Positions 3,621-28,256 of a stretch of 36,043 bases of DNA are shown here, piece after piece. A program made the position numbers and the translations under genes. The notes beneath the pieces were generated by a model, which searched no databases, was not told where the DNA came from, and saw only the letters and a list, made by a program, of their open reading frames with translations. Each line of letters begins with the position of its first letter. Within the stretch, counting starts at the first letter, position 1. Source of the DNA: Candidatus Coatesbacteria bacterium (GTDB lineage: Bacteria; RBG-13-66-14); NCBI GenBank assembly GCA_014728225.1, contig WJLX01000043.1, forward strand, positions 1 through 36,043, in the 5' to 3' direction.

Positions 3621-5630
3621 CTAGAAGTAATGGATCTTGAGGTAGTTGAGCAGCTCCCGGGCCAGCTTCTCGCTGACGCCCTTGACGGCGCTGAGCTCCT
3701 CGACGGTGGCCCGGCGGATGCCTTTCAGCGAGCCGAAGGTGTCCAGCAGGGCCTTGCGCCTGGTGGGGCCGATACCGGGGACCCGTTCGAGGATCGACTG
3801 CAGCCCGTCGGCGCGCCGCAGTTGACGGTGGAAGCGCAGGCCGAAGCGGTGGGCCTCGTCGCGGACCCGCTGGAGCAGTTGCAGGGCCGGAGAGTCCAGG
3901 GGCAGCTTGACGGGGGTCTTGCGGCCGGGCTTGAAGATCAGCTCTTCTTTCTTGGCCAGGCCGATGACGGCGAAACGCCCGGCCAGACCTTCGGCTTCCA
4001 GGGTTTCAACCACGGCGCCGAGCTGGCCCTTGCCGCCGTCGACGACGAGGAGGTCGGGAAGTTTACCCTTGTCGGCCAGTTTGGGGTAGCGGCGTCGGGT
4101 GACCTCGGCCAGCATGGCGTAGTCGTCGGGCCCCGGCGTTTTGAGTTTGTAGTGGCGGTAGCCGCCCTTGAAGGGCCGGCCGCCGCGGAAGCGGACCAGG
4201 CTGGCCACGGGATTGTCGGCGCCCAGGTTGGAGATGTCCAGGCCCTCGATGACCAGGGGTACGCCGTCGAGGCCCAGGCGCTCGGCGAGCTGGACGGCGG
4301 CTTCGGCCTGGCCCCGCTTGGCCAGTTGGTCGATCAGCAACTGCTCGAGGTTGCGCCGGGCGTTGCGCTGCGCCGATTGTTGCAGTTCGCGCAGCCGACC
4401 GCGCTGGGGTACGATCAAGCGGACCCGACCGCCCCGGGTGCGTCGGGTGGGTTCCGTCGAGGGCGAGGCCCGCAGTAGGGCCCGAGTGGCCGGGGCCTCA
4501 CCGATCTCGTTGCGCAACCGGGTGATCAGCTTGGTCAGGTCGTCGGCGTCGGCGGGTTCCGTCGGCAGGATGATTCGCTGGGGGATCCAGTCGGCGCCGG
4601 TGTAGTAACTGGAGAGGAAGGCGGCCAGCACGGCGGCGTCGCTCTCCGCAGGGTGGGCCGTCAGGGGGAAGGCGTCATCGCCCAGCAGGTAGCCCTGGCG
4701 GATCTTGAGCAGCTCGACGACGCTTTCACCGCGCCGCCGGGCCAGACCGAGGATGTCCAGGTCCTCGGCCCTGGTGCTGACGGCGCGCTGCTTGGTCATC
4801 ACCTGCTCGACGGCCCGCAGGGCGTCGCGGTACTTGGCGGCGCGTTCGTACTCCCGTCGCTGACTGGCCTCGCCCATCTCCCGCTTCAGCCGCTCGGCGA
4901 CCTCGCCGCGGCGGCCCTGGAGGAAATCCGTCGCCGCCCGGACGTAGGAGGCGTACTCGCGCTTGGAGACCGCGCCGACGCAGGGCGCGCTGCAGCGCTC
5001 CAGGCCGTGCAGCAGGCAGGGGCGCCAGTCGGGCATCGGCTGCTTCCCGCCCTGCTCCCGCCAGACGTGGATCTCCCGCTTGCAGACCCGCAGACCGAAC
5101 AGGCGCTGCAGGGTCTTGAGCGTCGAACGGGTGGCCTTGGCGTTGGAGAAGGGACCGAAGTAGGTCGAGGCCCGCTGCGAGGTGTCCCGGGTGACCATGA
5201 TCCGCGGAAACACGTCCTCCGTGGTCAAGCGGATGAAGGGGTAGCGCTTGTCGTCCTTGAGGTTGATGTTGTAGCGCGGCTTGTGGAGCTTGATCAGCGA
5301 GCTCTCCAGCAGCAGCGCCTCGACCGGGTTGGCCGTCACCGTGACGGTGAAGTCCTCGACCCGGCGCACCATCGAGCGGGTGTGCGGCTCGAGGGTCGCC
5401 CCGGCTTGGAAGTAGGAGCGTACACGGTTGGCCAGGTCGTCGGCTTTGCCGACGTAGAGCACGCGGTTGCCCTTGCCCAGGAAGCGGTAGACGCCGGGCT
5501 CGTGGGGCAGGCGGCGCAGCTTGAGCTGCAACGGATCCTCCGCCGGATTATCCGCGGCTTCTTCCGCGGCCGGTTCGTCGCCGATCGCGCTCTCGGGTGC
5601 GTTCGGTTGTTCGTTGTGTTCGTCGCTCAT
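3621..5630 (-). CDS. uvrC: Excinuclease ABC subunit C
   Basis: UvrC makes both incisions beside bulky DNA lesions after UvrA and UvrB have marked them. The order of parts is complete: N-terminal GIY-YIG nuclease (GVYRFLGKGNRVLYVGKA), a four-cysteine-type region near CLLHGLERCSAPC, the UVR UvrB-binding helix pair (REYERAAKYRDALRAVEQV), the RNase H-like nuclease (DISNLGADNPVASLV, then VVDGGKGQLG), and two helix-hairpin-helix motifs at the C-terminus (VPGIGPTRRKALL, VKGVSEKLARELL). Length, about 669 aa, is slightly above usual because of an acidic N-terminal extension. The start is uncertain: AAAGGAG lies only one base from a TTG at 5648, while the ATG at 5630 has none well placed. It is monocistronic, bounded by repeats on both sides. 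Confidence 0.96.
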   Translation of the reverse strand: MSDEHNEQPNAPESAIGDEPAAEEAADNPAEDPLQLKLRRLPHEPGVYRFLGKGNRVLYVGKADDLANRVRSYFQAGATLEPHTRSMVRRVEDFTVTVTANPVEALLLESSLIKLHKPRYNINLKDDKRYPFIRLTTEDVFPRIMVTRDTSQRASTYFGPFSNAKATRSTLKTLQRLFGLRVCKREIHVWREQGGKQPMPDWRPCLLHGLERCSAPCVGAVSKREYASYVRAATDFLQGRRGEVAERLKREMGEASQRREYERAAKYRDALRAVEQVMTKQRAVSTRAEDLDILGLARRRGESVVELLKIRQGYLLGDDAFPLTAHPAESDAAVLAAFLSSYYTGADWIPQRIILPTEPADADDLTKLITRLRNEIGEAPATRALLRASPSTEPTRRTRGGRVRLIVPQRGRLRELQQSAQRNARRNLEQLLIDQLAKRGQAEAAVQLAERLGLDGVPLVIEGLDISNLGADNPVASLVRFRGGRPFKGGYRHYKLKTPGPDDYAMLAEVTRRRYPKLADKGKLPDLLVVDGGKGQLGAVVETLEAEGLAGRFAVIGLAKKEELIFKPGRKTPVKLPLDSPALQLLQRVRDEAHRFGLRFHRQLRRADGLQSILERVPGIGPTRRKALLDTFGSLKGIRRATVEELSAVKGVSEKLARELLNYLKIHYF

Positions 5631-5667
5631 GCCGTCGTCCGGGGTCAATCTCCTTTAGTTCCACACG

Positions 5668-5676
5668 ATTATAGCA
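5668..5676 (-). promoter_or_regulatory. Extended -10 promoter of uvrC
   Basis: On the minus strand TGC-TATAAT forms a consensus extended -10 element about 20 bases upstream of the possible TTG start and 38 upstream of the ATG. No convincing -35 hexamer lies 16-18 bases further up, which is normal for extended -10 promoters. Transcription should start near 5661, giving a very short leader. Confidence 0.55.
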
Positions 5677-5837: not shown

Positions 5838-5845
5838 ACGGCGGC

Positions 5846-6114
5846 GGCGCCGGGTTGGTCGCCGGGCCGCTTCCCGCCGATGACCGGCGGCGCCTGGTTG
5901 GTCGCCGGGCTGCTTCCCGCCGATGACCGGCGGCGCCTGGTTGGTCGCCGGGCTGCTTCCCGCCGATGACCGGCGGCGCCTGGTTGGTCGCCGGGCTGCT
6001 TCCCGCCGATGACGGGCGGCGCCTGGTTGGTCGCCGGGCCGCTTCCCGCCGATGACCGGCGGCGCCTGGTTGGTCGCCGGGCCGCTTCCCGCCGGATGAC
6101 CGGCGGCGCCGGAT
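5846..6114. repeat. 43-bp tandem repeat array, six units
   Basis: The sequence GGTTGGTCGCCGGGC starts at 5853, 5896, 5939, 5982, 6025 and 6068, exactly 43 bp apart. Units differ only by scattered changes (CTGCTT or CCGCTT; one GACGGG; one extra G in the last unit). Each unit holds CCGGCG/CGCCGG and CCGCCG/CGGCGG inverted repeats, so alternative hairpins are possible. Because 43 is not a multiple of three, the open frames across it are by-products. Units abut without unique spacers, so it is not a CRISPR array. It is bounded by palindromes F1 and F2. Confidence 0.92.
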
Positions 6115-6120
6115 GCTCCC

Positions 6121-6191
6121 CGGCCCGTCACGGTTGTTGCGGGGCCGGGTTCGCCAGCGGGCGAACCCGGCGCAACAACCCGCGCCGGGCC
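6121..6191. repeat. Short palindrome variant F2
   Basis: Arms CGGTTGTTGC (6131-6140) and GCAACAACC (6172-6180) are extended outward by GGCCCG and CGGGCC-type pairing, and enclose a perfect inner hairpin CCGGGTTCGC (6145-6154) with GCGAACCCGG (6161-6170). Compared with F1 and the large palindromes, the central base of TTNTTGC changes together with its partner. It lies downstream of the 39-codon gene on the minus strand and could act as its terminator. Confidence 0.7.
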
Positions 6192-6252
6192 CTCGACTAT
6201 ACGTTATCGATACGCTTCCCGTCTCTGTCGAGGCTCGGGAAAGAAACGATGA

Positions 6253-6372
6253 CTACTCGTCTTTAGCATACATAGAAAACAGTAGAAACCCTACTCCAGC
6301 AAGTATAATGAATAATACATTAGCACTGAGTATGCAAGGAGTTACCATTAGTAAATTCGCTACTAGGTACAT
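6253..6372 (-). CDS. 39-aa single-span hydrophobic membrane peptide
   Basis: The reading frame ATG (6370-6372) to TAG (6253-6255) encodes 39 residues. The product begins MYLVANLLMVTPC, continues as an uninterrupted hydrophobic stretch (about residues 13-34, LFIILAGVGFLLFS in its second half), and ends in a short charged tail, MYAKDE. The initiation region is near perfect: AAGGAGGTGA (6376-6385) with GGAGG six bases from the ATG. A near-consensus promoter lies 55 bases upstream. Codon use is AT-rich (TTA, CTA, ATA, GTA), unlike every neighbouring gene. I do not recognise a family. The size and layout resemble small membrane peptides, including type I toxin peptides (TisB, Fst/Ldr), but this is inference and no antisense RNA gene is evident. 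Confidence 0.7.
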   Translation of the reverse strand: MYLVANLLMVTPCILSANVLFIILAGVGFLLFSMYAKDE

Positions 6373-6426
6373 ATGTCACCTCCTTAGTAATTTCTGAGCC
6401 GGTTAATCCGACTGATTACGTATTAT

Positions 6427-6455
6427 ACTATAGCATAAAACTTAGAATAAGTCAA
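6427..6455 (-). promoter_or_regulatory. Near-consensus sigma-70 promoter of the 39-aa gene
   Basis: On the minus strand TTGACT (6450-6455), a 17-base spacer and TATAGT (6427-6432) are preceded by TGC, an extended -10. A second TATAAT overlaps just downstream (6422-6427). Upstream of the -35 is an A/T-tract region (6456-6485) like an UP element. The start would be near 6420, leaving a leader of about 48 nt. It is among the best promoter matches in the window, implying strong expression or dependence on an unseen repressor. Confidence 0.8.
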
Positions 6456-6575
6456 GTTTTTATTAATTGTATTTTTTTATATGTCTTTTGGGCTCTATTT
6501 ATGTTATCTATTTGGTAATATACTATGTATCTGCGTAAATTACATTAATTGCCACCAGTCGTATACTATATTTTA

Positions 6576-6595
6576 AACCCGCCATTCGGCGGGTT
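6576..6595 (-). terminator. Terminator of the redox operon
   Basis: AACCCGCC (6576-6583) pairs perfectly with GGCGGGTT (6588-6595) around a 4-nt loop. On the minus strand the stem is followed by TTTAAAATATAG. It lies 27 bases after the stop codon of the FMN/4Fe-4S gene and separates that operon from the AT-rich island. Confidence 0.75.
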
Positions 6596-6622
6596 ATCAA
6601 CATCTCCCAGGTGCTGTGTATA

Positions 6623-7603
6623 TTAGACCTCGAACAGGCTGCGCTTGGCGGCGATGGCCTTGCCGGCGGCGGAGAGGGCGCTGATGCCGTTGGGGCAGCG
6701 GGCGGCGCAACGGGCGCAACCCACGCAGTACTTGGCCAGCTCCTCGACGCGCTCGTAGTTGCCCAGCCGGGTCTCGAGCACCATGGTCATCGGCAGGGGG
6801 ACGTCGTCCTCGACGCGGCCGACGGGACAGACGCCGACGCAGGCCTGGCAGTTGTAGCAGTTGAGGCTCTCGCCGGTGTCGCGGACGACGACGCCGGAGA
6901 TCATGAAGTCGAGGAGGAAGATGATGCCGTAGATGATGCAGAGCTGGAAGATCATCTCGCGGCTGAACTCGCCGTAGGTCAGCCACTGGAGCGCCTCGAC
7001 GTAGAAGGGCTGCTCGCCGGCGCCGCCGGCCTGTTGCAGGGCCTCGTAGGCGGCGGCCTTGACGCCGTCGGAGGTGTAGGTGGCCCCGGAGACGGCGTCG
7101 ACGTCGAGGGTCCGGGCGGCGGCGATCCGTTCGGGCAGTTGTTCGAGGGCCTCGTCGACGGCGGGCCGGCCCTGGGATTCGCTTTCGGCGGTGACGGCGA
7201 GTTCGACGATCCCGCCGCTGGAGACCTCGGCGGTCACTTCGAGGGGGTCGACGGCGTTCTTGCCCACTCCGTTGCCGACGTAGGTGCCGGGCTGCAGGGC
7301 CTCGAAGTCGATGCGCTCGGCTTGTTCGAGCAGGTAGAAAGCGCCGGTCAGTACGGCGGGGACGCTCAGCACCAGGGCGACCAGCACCAGGCGGTTCTTC
7401 TTGGCCCAGCGTCGACCCGGACCGAGGAAGAGGAAACTGAAGCCCAGGATCAGCACCAGCAGCAGGCGCGCCGGGGGGAAGAAGACGGCCACCACGATCG
7501 TCGCCAAAGCGATGCGCCAGGAGCGCCGCGGTAGCAGCTTGGCCGCCAGGTAGCCCTCGCCGCGGTTACGGGGGCGCTCGACTGTCGCCTCAGCGGTCGG
7601 CAA
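6623..7603 (-). CDS. Membrane FMN-binding / dicluster 4Fe-4S electron-transfer protein
   Basis: The 326-aa protein has hydrophobic segments at about 31-62 (probably two helices split by PP) and 71-90, then an FMN-binding domain (about 100-195) with the flavinylation motif DAVSGATYTS (170-178; Thr175 is the expected FMN-linked residue), another helix at about 217-240, and two ferredoxin clusters: C249-C252-C255-C259 and C293-C296-C299-C303. Positive-inside reasoning puts the flavin domain outside and the Fe-S clusters inside, as in the NosR/RnfG style of transmembrane electron transfer. Covalent FMN attachment would need ApbE, which is not in the window. The start is TTG, fixed by AGGAGG six bases upstream, and overlaps the preceding gene by 14 bp, so translation is probably coupled. 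It is last in the operon. Confidence 0.88.
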   Translation of the reverse strand: MPTAEATVERPRNRGEGYLAAKLLPRRSWRIALATIVVAVFFPPARLLLVLILGFSFLFLGPGRRWAKKNRLVLVALVLSVPAVLTGAFYLLEQAERIDFEALQPGTYVGNGVGKNAVDPLEVTAEVSSGGIVELAVTAESESQGRPAVDEALEQLPERIAAARTLDVDAVSGATYTSDGVKAAAYEALQQAGGAGEQPFYVEALQWLTYGEFSREMIFQLCIIYGIIFLLDFMISGVVVRDTGESLNCYNCQACVGVCPVGRVEDDVPLPMTMVLETRLGNYERVEELAKYCVGCARCAARCPNGISALSAAGKAIAAKRSLFEV

Positions 7604-8271: not shown

Positions 8272-8424
8272 CTAGGTCAGCAGGTAGAGGACGGCGACGA
8301 TCACCCCGCCCAGGGCGCCCTGGAGGATGGCCTTGCGGGTGCGGAAATCCATCGCGTAGGCGATGATGGCCCCGGAGACGGCGCCGCCGAAGAGAAAGGC
8401 CAGCCATTTGGTCAGCTCGGTCAT
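8272..8424 (-). CDS. 50-aa two-helix membrane protein related to the transporter tail
   Basis: A short frame, ATG at 8422-8424 to TAG at 8272-8274, encodes 50 residues: MTELTKWLAFLFGGAVSG, a helix, a short loop DFRTRK, and a second helix LQGALGGVIVAVLYLLT. AGGGAGG lies eight bases upstream of the ATG. It fits tightly between the transporter gene (10 bp upstream) and the 4Fe-4S gene (16 bp downstream), so it is a real operon member. Its FGGAVSG and QGALGG segments match LGGAVAG and QGAVGG in the last 58 residues of the 606-aa transporter, suggesting it arose by duplication of that tail. Function is unknown; it may be a small subunit. Confidence 0.8.
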   Translation of the reverse strand: MTELTKWLAFLFGGAVSGAIIAYAMDFRTRKAILQGALGGVIVAVLYLLT

Positions 8425-12891: not shown

Positions 12892-13683
12892 TCAGGCCTC
12901 GTCGACGTCGTCTTCGCCGGCGTAGCCCAGCTCGTTCAGGCTGTCGCGGGCGTCCTCGGCGTAGGGGTTGTCGGGGTGTTCGTCGAGGATGCGCTGGAAA
13001 CTGTCGCGGGCCTCGGCGGGGCGTTCCAGCTCCCGCAGGGCCTCGCCGCGGCGCCAGAGGACCTCGGGCAGGTAGCTGCTGTCGGGGAAGCGCTCCAGCA
13101 GCAGGTCGGCGTAGTAGATCACCGGGACGGGCTCGCCCATTCGCCGGTAGATGTAGGTGGTGTAGGCCAGCTTGCGTGACTGGATGTCGAGGACCTCGGC
13201 GATGGCGGCCTCGACCTCCGGGGTGAGTTCGGAGCCCGGGAACAGCTTGAGGGTGCGGCGGAACTCGCCCAGAGCCTGGTCCAGCATCGAGGTGTCGCGC
13301 TGGAAGCCCGGAGAGCGCTCCAGGTAGCAGCGGCCGATCAGGTAACGGGCGTCGTCGGTGTAGGGGGAGTTGGGGAAGCTGGTGGCCAGGTCCTCGAAGA
13401 TGGCCTGGGCGTCGAGGTACAGCTCGTCACGGAAGTAGGACAGCGCCAGGTAGTACTGGGCGTCGTCGGCGTAGGTGACGTTCTCCGGATAGACGGTGGC
13501 GTTCTCGAAGCAGATCCGCGCCGTTTCGTAATCCTCTTCGTCGAAGTAGCGCTGACCCATCTCGAACCATTCCTGGGCGGTCAGGCTGAACAGGTCGGGC
13601 AGCTCGACGCCGCAGCCCGTCAACAGCGCCGTCAGCGCCAGGGCGCCGAGCAGGAGGGGGAATGCTGGATGGTTTCTCGCCAA
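12892..13683 (-). CDS. bamD: Outer-membrane assembly lipoprotein, BamD-like
   Basis: The 263-aa product has a lipoprotein signal peptide ending in LLTGC (lipidated Cys24), then repeated TPR helices: YFDEEDYETARICFENATVYPEN, YLDAQAIFEDLATSFPNSPYTDDARYLIGRCYL, FRRTLKLFPGSE, and a C-terminal RDSFQRILDEHPDNPYAEDA. The DARYLIGRCYL-type second repeat and overall length match BamD, the essential lipoprotein of the BAM complex that inserts beta-barrels into the outer membrane. A YbgF/CpoB-like TPR lipoprotein is the main alternative. The next gene upstream ends two bases before this start and also encodes TPRs, so the two are co-transcribed. Confidence 0.8.
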   Translation of the reverse strand: MARNHPAFPLLLGALALTALLTGCGVELPDLFSLTAQEWFEMGQRYFDEEDYETARICFENATVYPENVTYADDAQYYLALSYFRDELYLDAQAIFEDLATSFPNSPYTDDARYLIGRCYLERSPGFQRDTSMLDQALGEFRRTLKLFPGSELTPEVEAAIAEVLDIQSRKLAYTTYIYRRMGEPVPVIYYADLLLERFPDSSYLPEVLWRRGEALRELERPAEARDSFQRILDEHPDNPYAEDARDSLNELGYAGEDDVDEA

Positions 13684-13685
13684 GG

Positions 13686-14393
13686 CTAGTCCTTGAGGTG
13701 GTTGTTGATGTAGGCCAGGTAGAGGTCGACGGTGCGGCCGATCTCCTCGTCGAGGAGCTTGGCGCTCTGCAGGTGCTCCCGCGCCGCCTGGTGTTCACCC
13801 TCGCCGAAGAGGACGATGCCCAGCTCGAGATGGCCGCGGCCGTAGCGGGGGTTGATCTCCAGGGCTCGCTCCAGGGACTCGCGGGCTTCGCGGTGCCTGC
13901 CGGTGTGGCGCAGCAGGGAGCCGCGGAAGGTGTGCAGATCGGGGTAGTTGGGCGCCAGCTCCAGGGCGGCGTCGATGAGCCGCTCGGCGGCGGCGCTGCG
14001 ACCGGCCTGCATCTCCAGGCGGGCCAGTTCGAGGTAAGAGTTGGCCAGGCGCGAAGCCAGACCGGGTTGCAGCTCGGGTCCGTCGGTCAGGGGCTCGAAG
14101 AGCTTCTCCCGTTCCCCCTCCACCTCGTCGTAGCGTCCCAGGTCGCTCAGGGTGATCAACAGATTCAGCCGGGCTTCCTCGTAGGCCGGGTTGAGCTCCA
14201 GGGCCTTGCGGTAGTACCCGGCGGCGCTCTCGTACTCCCCGCGCAGGGAGTGGCACATCCCGATCAGGTTGTAAACGTCGGGATAGGTCAAGCCTTCGCC
14301 CACGGCCATGCGCAGCTCGTTGAGAGCCTCGACGTACTGGCCGCGGTCGATCAAGCGGCGGGCGGCCTGGATGCGATCGTCTGCCTTGGACAC
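13686..14393 (-). CDS. TPR-repeat protein
   Basis: From GTG at 14393 the product is 235 aa and almost entirely tetratricopeptide repeats, for example AARRLIDRGQYVEALNELR, AAGYYRKALELNPAYEEARL, AERLIDAALELAPNYPDLHT and SLERALEINPRYGRGHLELG. No signal peptide or membrane segment is visible, so it is probably a cytoplasmic scaffold. The GTG is set by GGGGGAG five bases upstream; a longer frame reaching 14513 has a proline-rich start without TPR character. It precedes the bamD-like gene by two bases. No specific function can be assigned. Confidence 0.85.
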   Translation of the reverse strand: MSKADDRIQAARRLIDRGQYVEALNELRMAVGEGLTYPDVYNLIGMCHSLRGEYESAAGYYRKALELNPAYEEARLNLLITLSDLGRYDEVEGEREKLFEPLTDGPELQPGLASRLANSYLELARLEMQAGRSAAAERLIDAALELAPNYPDLHTFRGSLLRHTGRHREARESLERALEINPRYGRGHLELGIVLFGEGEHQAAREHLQSAKLLDEEIGRTVDLYLAYINNHLKD

Positions 14394-27821: not shown

Positions 27822-27868
27822 GTCACGGCGCTGATGCTGTTGACGTTCAGTTATGGAACCACGCCGCA

Positions 27869-28256
27869 GGAGCGCGGCTGGGCCGGCTGGAGGATAAACT
27901 GGCAAAACGGCGGCGCCGAAGCTGAAGACCTATGACAAAGGGTCCTTGGCGAAGGAGCGCAGATGGGCCGGCTGGAGGATAAACTGGCAAAATGGCGGCG
28001 CCAAACTGAAGACCTTGACAAAGGGTCCTTGGCGCAGGAGCGCAGCTGGGCCGACTGGAGGATAAACTGGCAAAACGGCGGCGCCGAAGCTGAAGACCTA
28101 TGACAAAGGGTCCTTGGCGCAGGAGCGCAGATGGGCTGGCTGGAGGATAAACTGGGAAAATGGCGGCGCCAAACTGAAGACCTATGACAAAGGGACCTTG
28201 GCGAAGGAGCGCAGATGGGCTGGCTGGAGGATAAACTGGGAAAATGGCGGCTGGGG
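27869..28256 (+). repeat. Tandem ~84-bp repeats: duplicated ribosome site and start region
   Basis: The gene at 28215 is preceded by four copies of its own beginning, with start-codon positions at 27878 (CTG), 27963 (ATG), 28046 (CTG) and 28131 (ATG), spaced 85, 83, 85 and 84 bp. Each unit holds AGGAGCGC as ribosome site, then GGGC-GGCTGGAGGATAAACTG, a TGGCGGCGCC region and GACCTATGACAAAGGG. The copy at 28131 is an intact 18-codon frame, MGWLEDKLGKWRRQTEDL then stop (28131-28187). The copy at 27963 lacks one base at its stop and reads on for 46 codons through the next unit. Only the last copy runs into the full gene. Confidence 0.85.

Follow-up and report, generated by a model that had tools for sequence, protein, structure and literature searches.

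In the genome of an uncultured Candidatus Coatesbacteria member, our analysis points to a single-gene cassette, orphan and probably acquired horizontally, that would encode a membrane microprotein with one span, a gene that, judged from its sequence, is probably though far from certainly real and that would be ordinary as a kind. The cassette lies in an AT-rich island (6240..6600, delimited by its composition profile) of contig C43, the whole of which, 36,043 nucleotides, forms the window analysed here; the host MAG comprises 2.96 Mb in 181 contigs and is 96.8% complete, with 65% GC. We favour this reading because promoter, leader, ribosome site and frame all point the same way at suitable distances from one another, because the strong site together with the frame exceeds chance and its ten bases are nearly unique in the genome, because about 1% of random AT-rich frames reach the hydropathy of the peptide and a single helix is predicted with confidence, because the AUG is mostly unpaired, the GC3 is 0.31 against ~0.9 and the unit stands alone, and because the island is absent at the equivalent places in the relatives G003, G004 and G006 and other AT-rich islands of the genome hold accessory genes.

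The first-pass annotation had described a minus-strand promoter of the form TTGACT-N17-TATAGT with an extended -10, and this is borne out by the DNA. The -35 element TTGACT (6455-6450) and the -10 element TATAGT (6432-6427) are separated by a 17-nt spacer with TG at 6435-6434, so that the extended -10, TGC TATAGT, occupies 6427..6435; ten of twelve consensus positions match, and the site is the best promoter-like one on either strand of the island. An equally good promoter arises in 2.5% of first-order simulated islands, and the promoter by itself is thus only moderately unusual for AT-rich DNA. The A/T-rich upstream element also claimed is present as A/T tracts (6456..6490, minus strand), a weak candidate for an UP element, but carries little weight since the entire island is AT-rich. 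Transcription would start near 6420, which gives a predicted leader of 48 nt (6373..6420), as had been estimated, with a predicted hairpin near its 5' end (AGTCGG-ATTAA-CCGGCT, 6397..6413). The leader has an unremarkable fold energy (z -0.21); that of a longer transcript (z -2.68) is probably due largely to a GC-rich hairpin 3' of the frame. Within the leader, the Shine-Dalgarno site AAGGAGGTGA (6376..6385, minus strand) matches the anti-SD complement at all ten positions, and CAT and the ATG come next. The spacing of six bases given previously is therefore correct for the GGAGG core, which ends 6 nt before the ATG, but not for the whole 10-mer. The AUG is largely unpaired in the predicted folds.

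The frame itself (6253-6372, minus strand; 120 nt, stop TAG) encodes MYLVANLLMVTPCILSANVLFIILAGVGFLLFSMYAKDE, 39 residues that are hydrophobic almost from end to end. This agrees with the earlier description of one hydrophobic span with a charged tail, here a long hydrophobic helix followed by AKDE. The highest hydropathy over 19 residues is 2.52, which 1.1% of random AT-rich frames with 30-50 codons attain, and AlphaFold2, run without an alignment, predicts a single helix over residues 2-38 (mean pLDDT 92), which is what such a sequence would be expected to give and is no proof of a fold. The tail has a net charge of -1 and is not cationic. The helix is preceded by no basic residue and followed by one K together with D and E, so any topology preference is weak, and the C-terminus may be slightly favoured inside. 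Prodigal has a minimum gene length of 90 nt; the frame exceeds it, so that, against the suggestion that the gene is too short for most gene callers, length need not cause it to be missed.

How far such an arrangement departs from chance was assessed with 20,000 composition-matched first-order simulated islands. Frames of at least 39 codons occurred in 37% of them when no ribosome site was required, so frame length alone is no evidence. When a ribosome site of at least 7 nt had to precede an ATG frame of at least 39 codons, only 4 of the 20,000 islands qualified, and fewer would with all ten bases; the joint occurrence of strong site and frame is far beyond chance. In the 2.96-Mb genome, AAGGAGGTGA with an ATG 2-6 nt downstream occurs four times, and the reversed control not at all. 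That AT-rich intergenic DNA merely resembles a gene here might seem plausible from the frequencies of long frames and of comparable promoters, but is exceedingly improbable given the simulated joint frequency, the near-unique 10-mer and a hydropathy reached by about 1% of frames. The unit is likely to be a real gene, or else a recent relic or the intact start of a former gene.

Read from right to left, the minus strand carries the FMN-binding/4Fe-4S gene (6623-7603) and a terminator-like hairpin, then the AT-rich island that houses the peptide unit, and after it an inverted repeat rich in GC, a 43-bp repeat in six copies and finally uvrC (3621-5648). The hairpin, AACCCGCC-GAAT-GGCGGGTTT (6577..6597, minus strand; from sequence and fold), appears to terminate the FMN-binding gene and separates it from the peptide unit, and uvrC is preceded by a -10 of its own (TGCTATAAT, 5668..5676, minus strand). 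uvrC thus appears to be transcribed from a separate start, which makes a monocistronic peptide unit probable; the terminator-like hairpin of the upstream neighbour and the -10 of uvrC together leave it standing alone. Its 3' boundary may be the GC-rich inverted repeat (6132..6180, minus strand), which forms a hairpin without a U tract and hence is not a standard terminator. The GC-rich tandem repeat just upstream of uvrC (5842-6110) consists of 6.2 copies of 43 bp that are 97% alike, and no further copy was found elsewhere in the genome. A second tandem array in the window (27865-28251) is built of 84-85 bp units in a 168-bp higher-order unit, 94-97% alike. The window also holds a candidate for another small membrane protein, of 50 aa (8275-8424, minus strand), with a GGGAGG site and in DNA of native GC content; it is flanked by a CitMHS-like transporter and a 4Fe-4S gene, and all its Pfam matches are sub-threshold.

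A search for relatives with tblastn, proposed as a check in the first-pass annotation, returned none for the 39 residues in the genome itself or in 385 others (98 genomes, then 386 in all). Neither was there a significant match among phage, plasmid and PDB sequences, a family match in Pfam, NCBIfam or PHROGs, known toxin families included, or a match in viral contigs to degenerate DNA patterns written for three segments of the gene. The tblastn hits obtained in genomes, phages and plasmids were rejected as noise (E of at least 0.014 per genome and at least 5 per collection), lying mostly inside larger frames or over stops; the DNA matches in 98 genomes were likewise rejected, being short AT runs only. 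The island DNA is single-copy in its own genome. An exact 19-nt match to the LFIILA stretch on contig C125 was dismissed as a copy, because it lies in a lipoprotein signal sequence (MKRYTFILFIILAC...), and is best read, from the sequence context, as convergence of hydrophobic codons. That contig has an AT-rich island with two tandem lipoprotein-like genes, probably imported, whose signal sequences carry a lipobox such as LLACD (L110:14007-14933 and 13076-13996).

The closest named relatives of the FMN-binding/4Fe-4S protein are in Candidatus Coatesbacteria MAGs, at 84%, 72% and 67% identity, which places the host among GC-rich Coatesbacteria. The island was found to be absent at the equivalent places in relatives of genus g4. 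In G004 and G006 unrelated GC-rich DNA follows the homologous FMN-binding gene, and in G003 and G004 another gene precedes uvrC. The contig of the nearest relative, G001, ends 156 bp past the homologous FMN-binding gene, in AT-richer DNA (41% GC) that we rejected as a homologue of the island, since it is not alignable and 74% of shuffles align equally well. No uvrC was found in G001 (99% complete), whose contig ends just beyond the FMN-binding gene. The absence of the island in G003, G004 and G006 suggests that it was probably gained recently in this lineage, which the contig end in G001 cannot confirm.

Composition is consistent with such an origin. GC is 0.30 in the island and 0.65-0.77 on both flanks, and the GC3 of the frame stands against 0.90-0.93 in three neighbouring genes. 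This foreign composition goes together with the patchy presence of the island, absent at the equivalent places in three relatives and unreadable at that place in G001. Neither element ends nor attachment repeats nor an integrase turned up around the island, which is flanked by uvrC and the FMN-binding/4Fe-4S gene. The earlier statement that composition and codon use are unlike those of all neighbours holds for the immediate surroundings, but islands of such AT-rich DNA are a common feature of the genome: counted as stretches below 42% GC, there are 53 in a sample of 882 kb (L094-L113 and L144-L183). The genes recognised in them are of accessory or defence types: a GmrSD N-domain with HEPN, two DUF429, DUF4258, DUF6602, DUF3892 with a zinc ribbon, and two genes that fall short of the Pfam cut-off, one PIN-like and one, by a small margin, YjzC-like. 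Equally strong ribosome sites precede the PIN-like, DUF429, DUF3892 and YjzC-like genes, and the promoter of the DUF4258 gene, TTGACG-17-TATATT with an extended -10, is comparable. Judged by its sequence, the peptide cassette appears to be one imported single gene among many, and one of the smallest that have every signal in place. A zinc-ribbon frame on contig C102 of the same genome (L090:406-549) has the same perfect ribosome site and adjoins a DUF3892 gene; it has an in-frame TAA after 13 codons (MRGPTGGPQPTTK, stop, CPECGGFLKATTQGSHNYRCDKCGKHFEINNLD, stop), so that the gene may be broken, misassembled or subject to read-through.

A type I toxin or toxin-like peptide, whose helix would depolarise the membrane and whose synthesis an antisense or divergent RNA would silence, is in our view unlikely. 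Its length of 39 aa, below 60, its hydrophobic helix, P12 and C13 within that helix and the accessory-island context fit membrane type I toxins (PMC8309996), and the peptide resembles Hok, Ldr/Fst, TisB, IbsC, ShoB, AapA1 and TimP in size, hydrophobic helix and setting. It differs from them in that no convincing sign of an antisense or divergent RNA, no significant masking of the ribosome site and no family match were found. The one antisense promoter candidate over the frame, weak and on the plus strand (TAGAAA-15-TATAAT, 6283-6309), could yield an antisense RNA, but its score of 11.6 lies within the range of simulated islands, whose best candidates average 10.9 (sd 1.3), and between the leader and the neighbouring intergenic DNA we found no complementarity suited to a divergent antitoxin RNA. 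A masked ribosome site or an inactive full-length mRNA is common, if not universal, among type I toxins; here the site is unpaired at 0.40, compared with 0.36 ± 0.08 in synonymous-codon shuffles, 81% of which are equally or more masked, so masking by the in-frame ACTCCTT was rejected as a toxin-like control. The acidic AKDE tail also sets the peptide apart from most membrane type I toxins, which have positive C-terminal residues, with IbsC, ShoB and DinQ as exceptions (PMC8309996). The toxin TimP, 38 aa long, shows that a toxin can be both small and poorly conserved (PMC7667032), and our estimate of the toxin reading is lowered only; nothing in the analysis shows the peptide to be a toxin.

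The composition that suggests import would also suit a relic, that is, the decayed start of an AT-rich foreign gene of which promoter, ribosome site and a shortened frame are left and which is useless now. We consider this rather unlikely. The sharp compositional difference, the lack of relatives and the rare codons are in line with decay, as are other apparently broken AT-rich frames in the genome, among them the zinc-ribbon frame with its in-frame TAA, and the LFIILA stretch shared over 19 nt with a lipoprotein signal sequence of another AT-rich island. However, the charged tail ends the frame at about the point where the AT-rich sequence stops, no protein continuation is visible downstream, the peptide has neither a signal-peptide n-region (no K/R before the helix) nor a lipobox, and the 19-nt match is better explained by convergence. 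A regulatory leader or small RNA, in which translation and not the peptide would matter, could draw on the unit's own promoter, the leader hairpin and the strong GC-rich hairpin 3' of the frame. It is very unlikely, since within ~600 nt only uvrC follows, with its own -10 and beyond the repeat array, since the leader fold energy is ordinary, and since Rfam covariance models at gathering thresholds matched in the window only a tRNA, located elsewhere than the peptide unit.

KdpF, CydX, AcrZ and MgtS are small regulatory membrane proteins. The peptide is like them in having one helix and a short polar tail; unlike theirs, its gene does not share an operon with a target complex, and no Pfam or NCBIfam profile matches it. 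Among the closest known systems are the orphan bacterial single-span microproteins below 50 aa in the GMSC smORF survey, which sets singletons without a matching family aside as error-prone (PMC11364881).

Taken as an imported cassette, the island would use its own sigma-70-type promoter to produce, in the leftward direction, a short mRNA on which the very strong ribosome site would direct translation of the 39-residue peptide. The product would most likely insert itself into the membrane as a single transmembrane helix whose short charged C-terminal tail probably faces the cytoplasm, and may act as an accessory membrane microprotein, either adjusting some membrane complex or being mildly membrane-active. 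The promoter, leader, ribosome site and frame are established as sequence and the hydrophobic helix by prediction, and the foreign composition and the lack of relatives are likewise observed; from these we infer transcription, translation, membrane insertion and any effect of the peptide. Several points count against the cassette: the frame has many CTA, ATA, GTA and TTA codons, likely rare in a host with a GC3 of ~0.9; the searches gave no relative of any kind that might reveal synonymous versus non-synonymous constraint on the frame; the promoter is only moderately unusual; and no mobile-element ends, attachment repeats or integrase came to light near the island. What had been proposed, a strong expression cassette for a tiny membrane peptide typical of type I toxins, stress peptides or membrane-acting regulators, survives as a cassette in foreign-looking DNA, but these three roles are not specifically supported. 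We give very little credence to the broader idea that Coatesbacteria acquire tiny self-contained AT-rich cassettes, each with its own promoter, a perfect ribosome site and one very small product, and that this one encodes a new class of membrane-active peptide that serves in conflict with phages or mobile elements.

Small, lineage-restricted families are common (PMC11364881), and the finding is therefore a modest one unless expression or a phenotype is shown. If expressed, the peptide would stand as a clear example of an orphan membrane microprotein whose expression signals are unusually complete, from a candidate phylum that has been little studied and is known here from MAGs. Our results also suggest looking to AT-rich islands with a single gene for accessory and defence-type genes in the GC-rich genomes of this group.
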